A stretch of 6,232 nt of DNA from Deltaproteobacteria bacterium (lineage in GTDB: Bacteria; JAUYMQ01): assembly GCA_030698575.1 (NCBI GenBank), contig JAUYMQ010000134.1:1-6232 (forward strand). The letters run 5' to 3'. Below the pieces are notes generated by a model. That model had not been told where the DNA came from, did not search any database, and saw nothing but the letters and a program-made list of their open reading frames with translations. Position 1 is the stretch's first letter. Each line of letters begins with the position of its first letter. The translations under genes and the position numbers were made by a program. Positions 3,074 to 6,226 of the stretch are shown here, in pieces.

Positions 3074-3568
3074 TCACAGGAAGGCGGAAGGAACAAGGCG
3101 CCGGGCAAGGCGGCGAAGCGGAGCACGTGGCGCAAGATGGAGCGAGACGAACTGTGCAAGGACTGCGCGCCAGGGCGCATCCAGAGAAACCCAGCGCCCC
3201 TTGCGGCGCACGGCGTCCGCGCGGCCGATGATGGCGCTGATCGGAAGGAGCGCGTCGGGGTAGCGCTCGCCGTCTCCTTTGAGACGAACGCGACAGGCGG
3301 TCCTGTCGATGGTGACCACACGGTGAATGACCGCTCCCCCGGCGGTGCGAGCGAGGACCACATCGCCCGGTCGGAGGGCGCGATCGCCCAGATTGCGAAT
3401 GCGAAGCTCCTCGCCGTCCCGGATCATCGGCCGCATGCTTCGCCCGCGGGCCCGCATCACGACCGTGCCGCCTTTTGCGTGGGCAGCCGCCACCGCCTCG
3501 CAGAGAGCCCGGTGGCGCGTGATCCCGTCGGTGTCGACCTGTTCCGCCGTCCGGTGCTCAGCATTCAT
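3074..3568 (-). CDS. S24/S26-type serine peptidase, soluble, signal-peptidase-like
   Basis: A 164-residue protein with the signal-peptidase/LexA-type peptidase fold signature. The catalytic Ser motif is GRSMRPMIRDG with S44 in SMxP. Next comes a typical RPGDVVLAR strand (66-74), then IHRVV with H82 and a KGDGE segment with D99. His at the general-base position followed by KGD resembles the ER/SipW-type branch of family S26 (Ser-His-Asp) rather than the Ser-Lys dyad of bacterial LepB. There is no transmembrane segment or signal peptide; the C-terminus (about 131-164) is basic and possibly amphipathic. The ATG overlaps the kinase stop in an ATGA arrangement, with GAGGG nine bases upstream, which fixes the start and suggests translational coupling. 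Upstream in-frame codons would extend into the kinase gene without a better ribosome site. By context it may cleave the leader from the modified peptide. Peptidase activity and substrate are inferred. Confidence 0.8.
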   Translation of the reverse strand: MNAEHRTAEQVDTDGITRHRALCEAVAAAHAKGGTVVMRARGRSMRPMIRDGEELRIRNLGDRALRPGDVVLARTAGGAVIHRVVTIDRTACRVRLKGDGERYPDALLPISAIIGRADAVRRKGRWVSLDAPWRAVLAQFVSLHLAPRAPLRRLARRLVPSAFL

Positions 3569-4509
3569 GCTGTGACGCCCTCGTTCAGAAGATGATCCAC
3601 CAGGCTCGCCTCGGGTAGAAATCGGAGTGTGTGCACCGGCACCTGCCCGACAATCTCGTTCACGAAGCCCAGCGTCCATTCCATGCCCGCCGCATCATAG
3701 AAGGGAGCGAAGCAGTTCACGAGCATCGACCTTGCCGCATCTCCCGGCGTGGCGGTCACGAGCCGGTTCTCGGGGGCCTGCTCGAGGAGAAATATCCGCG
3801 CAAGCGGCGCTGACTTCGGCGACGAGACCTCCGCGTCGCCATGCCAGGGAGTTCCGTACATGCGGCATCCCGTCTCCCCGTGCCGATCCTCCGGCCTGAC
3901 GATGATCCGGTCGTCGGAAATGATCGCGCATCCCTCGCGGCCCGCCCAGAGCCCGCTCATCGTGCTCTTGCCGGCGCCTGACCGTCCCAGGAAGAGCCAG
4001 CCCTCTCCTCGCGGCGTGATCAGGCCGGCGGCATGGAAGATCGCGCCGCGCCCCCTGGCGAGGTGGTTGATGACGATCACCTCGTCCAGCGGATAGCGAA
4101 GCGGATAGGGGTGAAAAGCGGGCCGGTCTCCCGCGGGTGTCACAAGGACCTCGCCGCGCGTGAAAGCCCCGTCCATGCGCGCGACCCGGTGGAGCGCGCC
4201 TCCCTCGGCGGGAGCGCCCAGCGATACGGCGATCCCGCCGTTGTCGTGGTGGAGATTCCAGAGTCCTCCGTCGGTGCTGTAGATAGGCTTGCCGGGGAGG
4301 CGTGGTGCGCGGGCGCCCCGTTGCACCCGGAGGGCGATGTTGGGCGTTTCACGTCGCTCGACGAGAAAGGCCCGATGCGGATCCTTCCCGGAGAACTCCC
4401 AGGTTCGGGCGGGATCCTCGATCTCGATGACGATCCCGCCGACGGAGAACGACAGGTGTGTCCCCGTCTGCAGCACCGCCGCCGCCGGTGTCGGCGCCCC
4501 GGAAATCAA
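3565..4509 (-). CDS. HPr kinase-like (HprK-related) P-loop kinase of a RiPP cluster
   Basis: A 314-residue protein (from the chosen TTG) with a C-terminal HprK-type nucleotide-binding domain. Visible motifs are FHAAG (H159), Walker A GRSGAGKST (175-183, K182), an IISDDRIIV strand with acidic D199/D200, and GTPWHG (219-224), common in HprK-related and PEP-carboxykinase-like proteins of peptide-modification loci. The N-terminal roughly 140 residues form a beta-rich region seen in this subgroup rather than the usual HprK N-domain. In paeninodin-type lasso clusters, HprK-like enzymes phosphorylate the C-terminal serine of the precursor, and the peptide encoded just upstream ends in Ser. A role as peptide kinase is therefore plausible but unproven. 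The start is uncertain. TTG at 4509 overlaps the precursor TGA by two bases. Other in-frame candidates are TTG 4557, GTG 4527 and GTG 4476, and none has a strong ribosome site. The stop overlaps the peptidase ATG. Confidence 0.85.
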   Translation of the reverse strand: MISGAPTPAAAVLQTGTHLSFSVGGIVIEIEDPARTWEFSGKDPHRAFLVERRETPNIALRVQRGARAPRLPGKPIYSTDGGLWNLHHDNGGIAVSLGAPAEGGALHRVARMDGAFTRGEVLVTPAGDRPAFHPYPLRYPLDEVIVINHLARGRGAIFHAAGLITPRGEGWLFLGRSGAGKSTMSGLWAGREGCAIISDDRIIVRPEDRHGETGCRMYGTPWHGDAEVSSPKSAPLARIFLLEQAPENRLVTATPGDAARSMLVNCFAPFYDAAGMEWTLGFVNEIVGQVPVHTLRFLPEASLVDHLLNEGVTA

Positions 4510-4700
4510 GATCCGACGTTCATGCACGACACGCCCGGCTGGCTGCTCTGCGTGCAAGGGCCAGGCGCCCCCAGGCCGTTCGTGTTGTCGGTTGCGAGCT
4601 TGCAGTTGTTCGGCACGCTGACCATGACGTCCAGTTCCACGTGCGTCACATCAGGCGTCAGATACTTCCGCCTTCCGCGCTTTTCATCCTGACCTTGCAT
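4506..4700 (-). CDS. Candidate RiPP precursor peptide, three Cys, C-terminal Ser
   Basis: A 64-residue peptide I do not recognise as a named family but which has precursor architecture. The N-terminus is charged (MQGQDEKRGRRK). A leader-like KYLTPDVTHVELDV (12-25) contains Y13-x-x-P16-x-V18, close to the YxxP motif that PqqD-like domains bind in lasso-type leaders. From about residue 30 the sequence is polar, Gly/Asn/Thr/Ser-rich, with cysteines at 33, 49 and 59, ending SCMNVGS. There is no signal peptide or transmembrane helix. ATG at 4700 follows AGAGAGG with a seven-base spacer, a strong site for abundant translation. It lies 70 bp after the radical SAM gene and its TGA overlaps the proposed kinase start. 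Cysteines suit radical SAM thioether formation, and the terminal Ser suits phosphorylation by the neighbouring kinase. The maturation chemistry and leader cleavage point are inferred. Confidence 0.8.
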   Translation of the reverse strand: MQGQDEKRGRRKYLTPDVTHVELDVMVSVPNNCKLATDNTNGLGAPGPCTQSSQPGVSCMNVGS

Positions 4701-4705
4701 GGCTG

Positions 4706-4714
4706 ATCCTCTCT
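4706..4714 (-). promoter_or_regulatory. Strong ribosome binding site of the precursor gene
   Basis: On the minus strand AGAGAGGAT precedes the ATG at 4700, with seven bases between AGAGAGG and the start codon. It sits in the 70-bp gap (4701-4770) after the radical SAM stop, the largest gap inside the cluster. The gap also contains an AT-rich GAATAAAACAG stretch. A separate strong site fits a peptide needed in excess over its enzymes. No clear promoter or hairpin was found in the gap. Confidence 0.65.
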
Positions 4715-4770
4715 GTTTTATTCGTCCAGAGGCGTCTCACCTCGGGGAAGATTTCTATCTCGTTCAGGCG

Positions 4771-5937
4771 CTAGCCGCCGCAGTGGCCGCCTGCAGCGAC
4801 GCCCCCATCCGCCCCGAAGAGGGAGAGAGCGATCGATCCGTCCGCGCGGGGCGTGAAGACTTCCTTCCGCATCTCGCCGATGTCGCAGAGATAATCGACG
4901 TGCGCGTGGTGATCGCCCGTTTCCCACTCCGCGAACCCCGGGCACCGGCCGCAGGTTTCGTGGGTGGAGCAGCCATTGCATTTCGAGTCCGGATCCCGCC
5001 CGCCCTGCAGGGCGGGAAGGATCTGCTCGAAGGCTTTGCGAAAGCTCATCTCGCGGAGGCTCAGGCTGATCTTGCGCGTCATGAGGCAGCCGTGCAGGCC
5101 GCCGTAAGGATCGATGTGAAAAGAGCTTTTCCCGGCCCCACAGGTGAAGACGTTGTCCGGAGGCAGCATCTCATCAGGCTTCGAGCAGCGCTCCTCCCAG
5201 GCGCGGGCCGTGTCGGCATGGGTCATGTCGATGTTGAGCACATCCCCGGCGCTCAGGCGGTAAGCCAGCGGGCTCTGGTCTCCGTTCATCTTGGGGGTGA
5301 TGATCGGATCGTAACGGAACGGCAGGCCGTAGCGATCGGCGATGGCCCAGATGTCATCCAGCTCGTGCCGGTTGATCGTCATCACAGGGGTCTTCAGTTT
5401 CAGCGGGAGGCGCCGCGCGGCGATTCGCTCGATCCCCTCAATGCAGCGGGCGTAGCTTCCCTTCACGCCCGTAACGCGCTCGTAGGTCTCCTCGGTGGCG
5501 CCATAAAGCGAGATCTCGATCGAGAACGGCGGATATGCTGCAAAGTGATCGGCTATCTTCTCGGTGATCATGGTGCCGTTCGTGAAGAGATTCACGAAGA
5601 TCCCGCGCGATTTGACGTGTGAGTAGATGTCCAGAAAGTCGGGGCGGAAGAGCGGCTCTCCCCCGGTGATGAGGAGCCACATGAGCCCCTCAGCGGCCGC
5701 CTCGTCGATGATGCGGCGGATCTCCGGCAGCGTCAGCTCGTTCCCTTCCCCCGGCGGGCAATAGCAGTGAACACACTTCAGGTTGCACGGGTGCAGCAGC
5801 TCGATGCTGCCGCTGATCGGCACGCGTTTCTCCGTCACGAAACGGGTGAAGCGGCCGTCCGTTTCACCGCTGCGGATGCTGCGAATTTCGACTTCCTGCA
5901 CGGTTTCTCCCCTCCACGCCCTGCCCCCGGGCGCCAT
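4771..5937 (-). CDS. Radical SAM/SPASM peptide maturase
   Basis: A 388-residue iron-sulfur enzyme predicted to generate the 5'-deoxyadenosyl radical and modify a peptide. The radical SAM core has CNLKCVHC (C51, C55, C58), the CX3CX2C site for the SAM-binding 4Fe-4S cluster, followed by GGEP (92-95) and a LFTNGT strand. A C-terminal SPASM domain has a near-canonical pattern: C266-(12)-G-X4-C284, then C320-X2-C323-X5-C329-X2-C332, and C351, expected to bind two auxiliary clusters. SPASM enzymes beside PqqD-like proteins typically make thioether, C-C or C-O crosslinks in RiPPs. After C351 the protein continues in a glycine-rich tail ending VAAGGHCGG. ATG at 5937 lies four bases past the PqqD stop with GGGAGAA eight bases upstream. 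GTG at 5901 (376 residues) has an even stronger site, so the start is not settled. The reaction and residue specificity cannot be read from sequence. Confidence 0.92.
   Translation of the reverse strand: MAPGGRAWRGETVQEVEIRSIRSGETDGRFTRFVTEKRVPISGSIELLHPCNLKCVHCYCPPGEGNELTLPEIRRIIDEAAAEGLMWLLITGGEPLFRPDFLDIYSHVKSRGIFVNLFTNGTMITEKIADHFAAYPPFSIEISLYGATEETYERVTGVKGSYARCIEGIERIAARRLPLKLKTPVMTINRHELDDIWAIADRYGLPFRYDPIITPKMNGDQSPLAYRLSAGDVLNIDMTHADTARAWEERCSKPDEMLPPDNVFTCGAGKSSFHIDPYGGLHGCLMTRKISLSLREMSFRKAFEQILPALQGGRDPDSKCNGCSTHETCGRCPGFAEWETGDHHAHVDYLCDIGEMRKEVFTPRADGSIALSLFGADGGVAAGGHCGG
4999..5016. repeat. Perfect 18-bp palindrome inside the radical SAM gene
   Basis: CCCGCCCTGCAGGGCGGG is an exact inverted repeat with no spacer, lying within codons for the ALQGG region between the first and second cysteine groups of the SPASM domain. 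It could form a very stable hairpin in the mRNA or bind a dimeric protein. In such GC-rich DNA it may also be a chance product of codon use. No second copy was seen in the window. Confidence 0.6.
5907..5915 (-). promoter_or_regulatory. Shine-Dalgarno-like site for an alternative GTG start of the radical SAM gene
   Basis: On the minus strand GGAGGGGAG is followed by five bases and GTG at 5901. This would give a 376-residue radical SAM protein and remove twelve poorly conserved-looking residues. It competes with the ATG at 5937, whose GGGAGAA site overlaps the last codons of the PqqD-like gene. Both starts leave the radical SAM domain complete. Confidence 0.45.
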
Positions 5938-5941
5938 GGAA

Positions 5942-6226
5942 TCAGTTCTCCCGGATGCTTCCGATCTTGAACAGCTTCGCAAGCAGGGTATCGATGTCTC
6001 GCCGGGCCGTGTCGGCCGCGACGTCGAATTCCTCCACCACCGCGCTCACCAGGTCCTCCAGCGTGTGGCGCCCGTCCAGCCTGTCCCACACGAAGGCGGC
6101 AACCTCGTTCATGGTGAACAGGCCGACTTCCCGCACGTTCTGCCGGATGGGGACCAGGAAGATCTCGGTTGCCACGCGCCGGCAGACTACGTCCGGGTCC
6201 TGCCGGTAGAGCTTGTCCTGCGCCAC
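5942..6226 (-). CDS. PqqD-like RiPP recognition protein
   Basis: A 94-residue protein, the usual size for stand-alone PqqD-like proteins. It has the family pattern: an N-terminal Arg-rich strand region (RRVATEIFLVPI, 16-27), then FTMNEVAAFVWDRLDGRHTL (37-56), matching the 'ln..a..iW..ldG..tv.elv' consensus, and C-terminal EEFDVAADTARRDIDTLLAKL (65-85), matching the 'eefdv..e....dv..fl..L' helix. Such proteins are winged-helix RiPP recognition elements that bind the precursor leader and present it to a partner radical SAM enzyme, here encoded immediately downstream. The GTG start at 6226 lies only six bases from the window edge, the frame is still open there, and its ribosome binding site cannot be seen, so the true start could be further right. 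Homology to the expected N-terminus suggests little or nothing is missing. Confidence 0.88.
   Translation of the reverse strand: MAQDKLYRQDPDVVCRRVATEIFLVPIRQNVREVGLFTMNEVAAFVWDRLDGRHTLEDLVSAVVEEFDVAADTARRDIDTLLAKLFKIGSIREN

Follow-up and report, generated by a model that had tools for sequence, protein, structure and literature searches.

We identified a compact five-gene cassette that recurs in the same order in the window (the whole stretch of 6,232 nts analyzed in this study) and in Acidobacteriota genomes, and whose small precursor peptides end almost without exception with Ser or Thr. On balance, we lean slightly toward the view that it defines a RiPP family that is widespread mainly in Acidobacteriota and also occurs in one genome from a different phylum. 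In this view, a single peptide would carry two modifications, one introduced into its three-Cys core by a SPASM radical SAM enzyme and the other, a phosphate, added to its invariant C-terminal Ser by an HprK-like kinase, with an S26B-type enzyme acting as leader peptidase.

The five-gene cassette and its recurrence

All five genes are tightly packed on the minus strand of the window:

5942..6226, minus strand: PqqD-like RiPP recognition element (RRE), 94 aa (Pfam PqqD, 2.1e-17)
4771..5937, minus strand: radical SAM/SPASM maturase, 388 aa (Pfam Radical_SAM, 2.2e-23)
4506..4700, minus strand: precursor peptide, 64 aa, Cys-containing, C-terminus ...CMNVGS (69-member family, window member E = 6e-13)
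3565..4509 (longest ORF from TTG 4557), minus strand: HprK-like kinase (HprK_rel_B, ScmC and hpr-ser matches across the family)
3074..3568, minus strand: S26B-type (archaeal signal-peptidase-like) predicted leader peptidase, 163 aa (Pfam S24, 1.1e-7; TIGR02228, 7.3e-8)

Only 6 bases separate the start of the PqqD/RRE gene from the end of the contig, and the gene may begin further upstream than position 6226. A GAGAGG sequence resembling a ribosome-binding site is present 5' of the precursor ORF. The longest ORF of the kinase starts with TTG at 4557, inside the precursor gene; a start at TTG 4509, where the precursor stop is overlapped as TTGA, or at GTG 4476 is likelier, and kinase residue numbers given below are counted from TTG 4557. 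The start of the S26B-like gene sits on the kinase stop (ATGA). Two other genes were observed on the same strand of the window. One, directly downstream of the cassette (1601-2965), encodes a PgmG-like phosphomannomutase/phosphoglucomutase (527 bits against a cut-off of 600), homologs of which with 48-52% identity occur in some distant genomes. The other (88-1455) encodes a response regulator with a PAS domain and a weak C-terminal GAF match, for which no link to the cassette was seen. The GC content of the window is 0.645, compared with 0.61-0.68 in the other stretches examined, and the contig may represent foreign DNA or a binning error.

When GTDB contigs were scanned with the maturase, two Acidobacteriota loci (L002 and L003) were found to reproduce the five genes of the window cassette and their order, down to a short Cys-containing peptide between maturase and kinase. 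A kinase profile built from the window and these two loci gave hits in 75 of the 396 Acidobacteriota genomes that were sampled. The exact order PqqD-radical SAM-precursor-kinase-S26 on one strand was observed in 24 fetched loci, namely the window and 23 from Acidobacteriota. Since the order is identical in all 24 and the small ORF fits a 69-member precursor family, the arrangement is not due to chance. The five co-directional genes and the families assigned to them in the sequence-only reading are real. Its proposal that RRE, radical SAM enzyme, kinase and leader peptidase serve a short Cys peptide in one pathway lacking a lasso cyclase is supported, and the pathway is conserved. The same reading had expected the short Cys ORF always to lie between maturase and kinase; this holds for 36 of the 53 same-strand loci containing all three central parts, and most of the others have the peptide elsewhere in the cassette.

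In approximately 12 more distant loci, the radical SAM and kinase domains are located in a single open frame (L090, L091, L092, L096, L097, L101-L105, L109 and L157), mostly with three radical SAM domains. Moreover, 19 of the fetched loci encode, close to the cassette and often directly after the S26 gene, a large and apparently secreted protein with a C25 (gingipain-like) peptidase domain (such as L003:10433-16843 and L065:6907-10281). The L003 protein also contains DUF11 repeats and shares its open frame with the S26 domain; the window has no gene of this C25 type.

Precursor family and predicted phosphorylation site

An iterated profile search resulted in 69 precursors with a complete C-terminus. 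Three positions of the window precursor correspond to conserved elements of this family:

4653..4664, minus strand: YxxP leader motif (Y13-P16), predicted RRE docking site ([YW]xxP in 68/69 precursors; YxxP is needed for RRE binding in linear polyphosphorylated peptides, LPP; PMC13381572)
4599..4604, minus strand: CK dipeptide (C33-K34), predicted core start, with further Cys residues at C49 and C59 (CK in 67/69 precursors)
4509..4511, minus strand: C-terminal Ser64 codon (TCT), predicted phosphorylation site (Ser in 64/69 and Thr in 4/69 precursors, which are related, so that 64/69 does not count 64 independent events)

At least three Cys residues are present in 66 of the 69 precursors (exactly three in 47 and more in 19). 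The invariant C-terminal Ser/Thr had been missed by the sequence-only reading, and it allows the site of the kinase to be predicted. The only precursor that ends otherwise, L099, matches the family weakly and also lacks the CK dipeptide. All six Ser codons are used at the last position (47 TCN and 17 AGY), which implies that the residue rather than the DNA is conserved and that the amino acid is under selection. As a control, just 22 of 288 PqqD, radical SAM, kinase and S26 proteins from the same loci have a terminal Ser. Positions -3 to -5 vary freely, and a small residue (Gly or Ala) is found at -2. The consensus of the family reads YxxPxVxxVxLRPEEAVLGxCK; beyond the cleavage region it contains no conserved Ser, and no internal Ser or Thr is invariant across the precursor family. 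The window precursor is a divergent member that has VSVPN in place of EAVLG. These features provide a search rule for such peptides in Acidobacteriota: [Y/W]xxP, CK, two further Cys residues and a Ser at the extreme end.

Several CK precursors were detected away from the other cassette genes, some of them on short contigs (L144, L148, L149, L150, L152 and L154-L156), and still end with Ser or Thr. A lipobox-like string, L-[AG]-[AS]-C, is present in some precursors and was considered as a possible signal; it was rejected, the window precursor having no hydrophobic segment.

When analyzed alone, the window kinase is weakly recognized (HprK_rel_B, 4.7e-7; no Pfam HprK match), and its earlier assignment as HprK-like holds at the level of the family profile. 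Among 34 aligned members, HprK_rel_B was matched by all 34, ScmC by 31 and hpr-ser (HPr(Ser) kinase) by 16, and Pfam Hpr_kinase_C by 23 at E <= 0.1. The window kinase nests within the set of related loci, beside L069-L075 (local support 0.955). An AlphaFold2 model built from three sequences only (pLDDT 45) was too poor to serve as evidence. A putative catalytic tetrad is strongly conserved: H175 in 64/64, K197 in 64/64, D215 in 63/64 and D216 in 53/64 sequences (Asp or Glu at the last position). According to a review of lasso-peptide tailoring, kinases of the PadeK/ThcoK type have a His-Lys-Asp-Asp catalytic motif and phosphorylate the C-terminal Ser of the precursor, which is conserved wherever such a kinase gene occurs (PMC9266682); our comparison of the tetrad was made against this published description rather than by direct alignment. 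The match of both the tetrad and the terminal Ser to PadeK/ThcoK is the main reason for proposing the C-terminal Ser as the target. The kinase is therefore predicted to act on the C-terminal Ser/Thr; of all predictions made here, phosphorylation at this terminal position is the strongest.

The kinase might instead act on an internal Ser or Thr of the core in an LPP-like pathway, the C-terminal Ser being kept for another role, such as a radical acceptor or a recognition site. LppK of the LPP system acts on Ser3 of the core instead of the C-terminus and does not accept Thr in place of this Ser (PMC13381572), whereas four precursors of the present family end with Thr, which speaks against a C-terminal target; RRE, kinase and S26B triad are also common to LPP and the window cassette. 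On the other hand, no internal hydroxyl residue is invariant, compared with a terminal one in 68 of 69 precursors, and PadeK, ThcoK and SyanK offer a precedent for the C-terminal Ser (PMC9266682). We thus consider an internal target improbable and retain the terminal residue as the predicted site. Relatives of the kinase do occur with precursors lacking a C-terminal Ser, both in SynChlorMet loci and in a plasmid-borne Butyrivibrio locus that lacks a radical SAM gene. Since those peptides end otherwise, the C-terminal Ser marks this precursor family and not every HprK-like kinase cluster, and the kinase target may differ between branches.

RRE, maturase, peptidase and the proposed pathway

The remaining three proteins are also well conserved at their key positions. 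Among relatives of the PqqD/RRE protein, R16 is conserved in 56/57, E21 in 57/57 and P26 in 53/57; its scores lie below the NCBIfam cut-offs of the ScmD, lasso-PqqD and PQQ models. In the radical SAM proteins, the CX3CX2C motif (C51/C55/C58) is present in 66/68 and each of seven SPASM-type Cys residues (C266, C284, C320, C323, C329, C332 and C351) in 55-62/68, so that the protein has both the radical SAM motif and the SPASM cysteines for auxiliary clusters by which a SPASM maturase is recognized. Its closest solved sequences are PqqE (3e-13) and SkfB (7e-13), and the nearest NCBIfam models are those of MftC and haem-biosynthesis enzymes, all scoring far below cut-off. Thioethers at the three Cys residues are our simplest guess for its product, the bond itself not being readable from the sequence. 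The peptidase, earlier described as S26-like, is indeed of this kind and can now be refined to the S26B type with a Ser-His-Asp triad (S44 in 44/46, H82 in 46/46 and D99 in 46/46). It has no clear transmembrane segment (highest 19-residue hydropathy 1.1).

Among NCBIfam models matched over their full length, the mycofactocin maturase gives the highest score for the window radical SAM protein (124 bits against a cut-off of 265), and the window contig has no exporter gene. Both observations would suit a different scheme, in which the kinase is a metabolite sensor or a regulator of another protein and the small ORF a regulator or a mycofactocin- or PQQ-like cofactor precursor rather than a secreted peptide. 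Such a scheme appears highly improbable: precursor, kinase and radical SAM enzyme are co-inherited, their domains are sometimes fused, and a pattern of variable core, constant Cys residues and constant C-terminus is what RiPP products typically show. To our knowledge, mycofactocin systems have no kinase or S26 genes. A mycofactocin or PQQ assignment was accordingly rejected, the scores being far below cut-offs and those systems lacking a kinase or peptidase.

It is likely that the cassette combines an LPP-like module with a SPASM maturase and yields a radical-modified, C-terminally phosphorylated peptide. Starting from the gene content, conservation, catalytic residues and invariant C-terminal Ser/Thr observed here, we infer a pathway including its bond type, order of steps, cleavage site, and the export and function of its product. 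First, the PqqD-like protein would bind the YxxP leader. Second, the SPASM radical SAM enzyme would modify the Cys-containing core, most likely by forming at least one thioether or other crosslink at the conserved Cys residues or at the invariant Lys adjacent to the first of these. Third, the HprK-like kinase would phosphorylate the hydroxyl of the C-terminal Ser, as its homologs PadeK/ThcoK (PMC9266682) and LppK (PMC13381572) have been shown to do with precursor Ser residues. Finally, the S26B Ser-His-Asp peptidase, with the help of the PqqD-like protein, would remove the leader near the CK motif, giving a radical-modified product of approximately 25-35 residues phosphorylated at its C-terminus. 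If this is true, two peptide chemistries known separately, radical SAM modification and terminal phosphorylation (the latter so far from lasso peptides), would be joined, and the newly described RRE/kinase/S26B module would extend beyond Bacillota.

Comparison with known systems

The closest experimental precedent is the LPP system of Bacillota (LppA/B/K/S/D/N), in which a module of RRE, HprK-like kinase and S26B leader peptidase has been demonstrated (PMC13381572). There, the RRE binds a leader whose YxxP motif is required, the kinase adds one to several phosphates to the precursor, and the signal-peptidase-like LppS, which needs S29, H68 and D93, removes the leader only in the presence of the RRE (PMC13381572). 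For three of the five cassette genes, there is thus experimental precedent for a joint module. The two systems share a discrete RRE, an HprK-like kinase, an S26B (SpI-like) Ser-His-Asp peptidase, in which S44/H82/D99 of the window family correspond to LppS S29/H68/D93, a YxxP leader and independence from a lasso cyclase. They differ in the precursor: the LPP motif YxxPxVLxHQxIxFETxxS and the phosphorylated core Ser3 are not found in the window family. Neither an LPP-type NTP transferase nor an MsbA-like exporter is encoded in the 6.2-kb contig, which ends just upstream of PqqD; NTP_transf_5-type neighbors occur near six related loci and ABC transporters near six. The LPP paper contains none of the terms radical SAM, rSAM or Acidobacteri(a) (PMC13381572).

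A possible LPP-like cluster was observed on Butyrivibrio fibrisolvens plasmid pNP243 (L178:4081-6104), with the order ABC transporter-kinase-peptide-PqqD-S26 and no radical SAM gene. Its 57-aa Cys-rich peptide ends with Trp, and both this peptide and the HprK-like kinase are annotated as hypothetical.

The second close system is the SynChlorMet cassette (ScmC/D/E/F; NCBIfam TIGR04248-TIGR04251), which consists of a PqqD protein, two radical SAM proteins and the HprK-like ScmC. Archaeal SynChlorMet loci with ScmC above cut-off have the order PqqD-radical SAM-radical SAM-peptide-kinase-S26, which the window cassette resembles except for its single radical SAM gene. It could therefore be argued that the cassette is simply another SynChlorMet, without special C-terminal chemistry, as true Scm loci have like gene types and order, S26 gene included, and the NCBIfam models nearest to the window proteins include ScmC and ScmD. 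This appears rather unlikely for three reasons. All window proteins fall far short of the Scm cut-offs (ScmC 17.5 against 125, ScmD 42.6 against 100, ScmE 62.8 and ScmF 78.7 against 400 bits); most Scm loci contain a pair of radical SAM genes and encode Cys/Gly-repeat peptides with a varying last residue; and the Scm kinases cluster apart from the clade of the window kinase.

In the archaeal SynChlorMet loci (L170-L175), the S26-like protein lies in the kinase open frame or is adjacent to it and falls outside the ScmC/D/E/F models. In two further archaeal kinase-PqqD-radical SAM loci (L176:7569-7691 and L177:4269-4409), the short peptide is of another type (Y.KP...E..EIGAYG.YEGPIP..PFF.LCC) and ends with a residue other than Ser.

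With lasso clusters of the paeninodin type (PadeK/ThcoK/SyanK, PMC9266682), the window cassette shares the HprK-like kinase tetrad, the invariant C-terminal Ser, the Y/WxxP leader and a discrete RRE; it differs in having a radical SAM enzyme, an S26B peptidase and a Cys-rich core, and in lacking the B2 peptidase and the lasso cyclase. A lasso-peptide assignment was rejected on the latter ground, neither a B2 transglutaminase-like peptidase nor an asparagine-synthetase-like cyclase being encoded in the window. Sactipeptide/ranthipeptide, PqqE and MftC systems likewise combine a SPASM radical SAM enzyme and a PqqD/RRE protein with a Cys-containing or crosslinked precursor, and no window protein reaches the cut-offs of their models. 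We know of no HprK-like kinase or S26B peptidase in these systems.

The suggestion of an undescribed or little-described RiPP class needs to be narrowed. Because LPP (PMC13381572) and SynChlorMet are close, the module is not categorically new and the combination not wholly undescribed. No paper describing PqqD, a radical SAM enzyme and an HprK-like kinase combined in one pathway was found in a search that covered mainly freely accessible literature. Within the searchable literature, the family distinguished from both systems by its single SPASM maturase, CK precursor and invariant C-terminal Ser/Thr appears to be undescribed.
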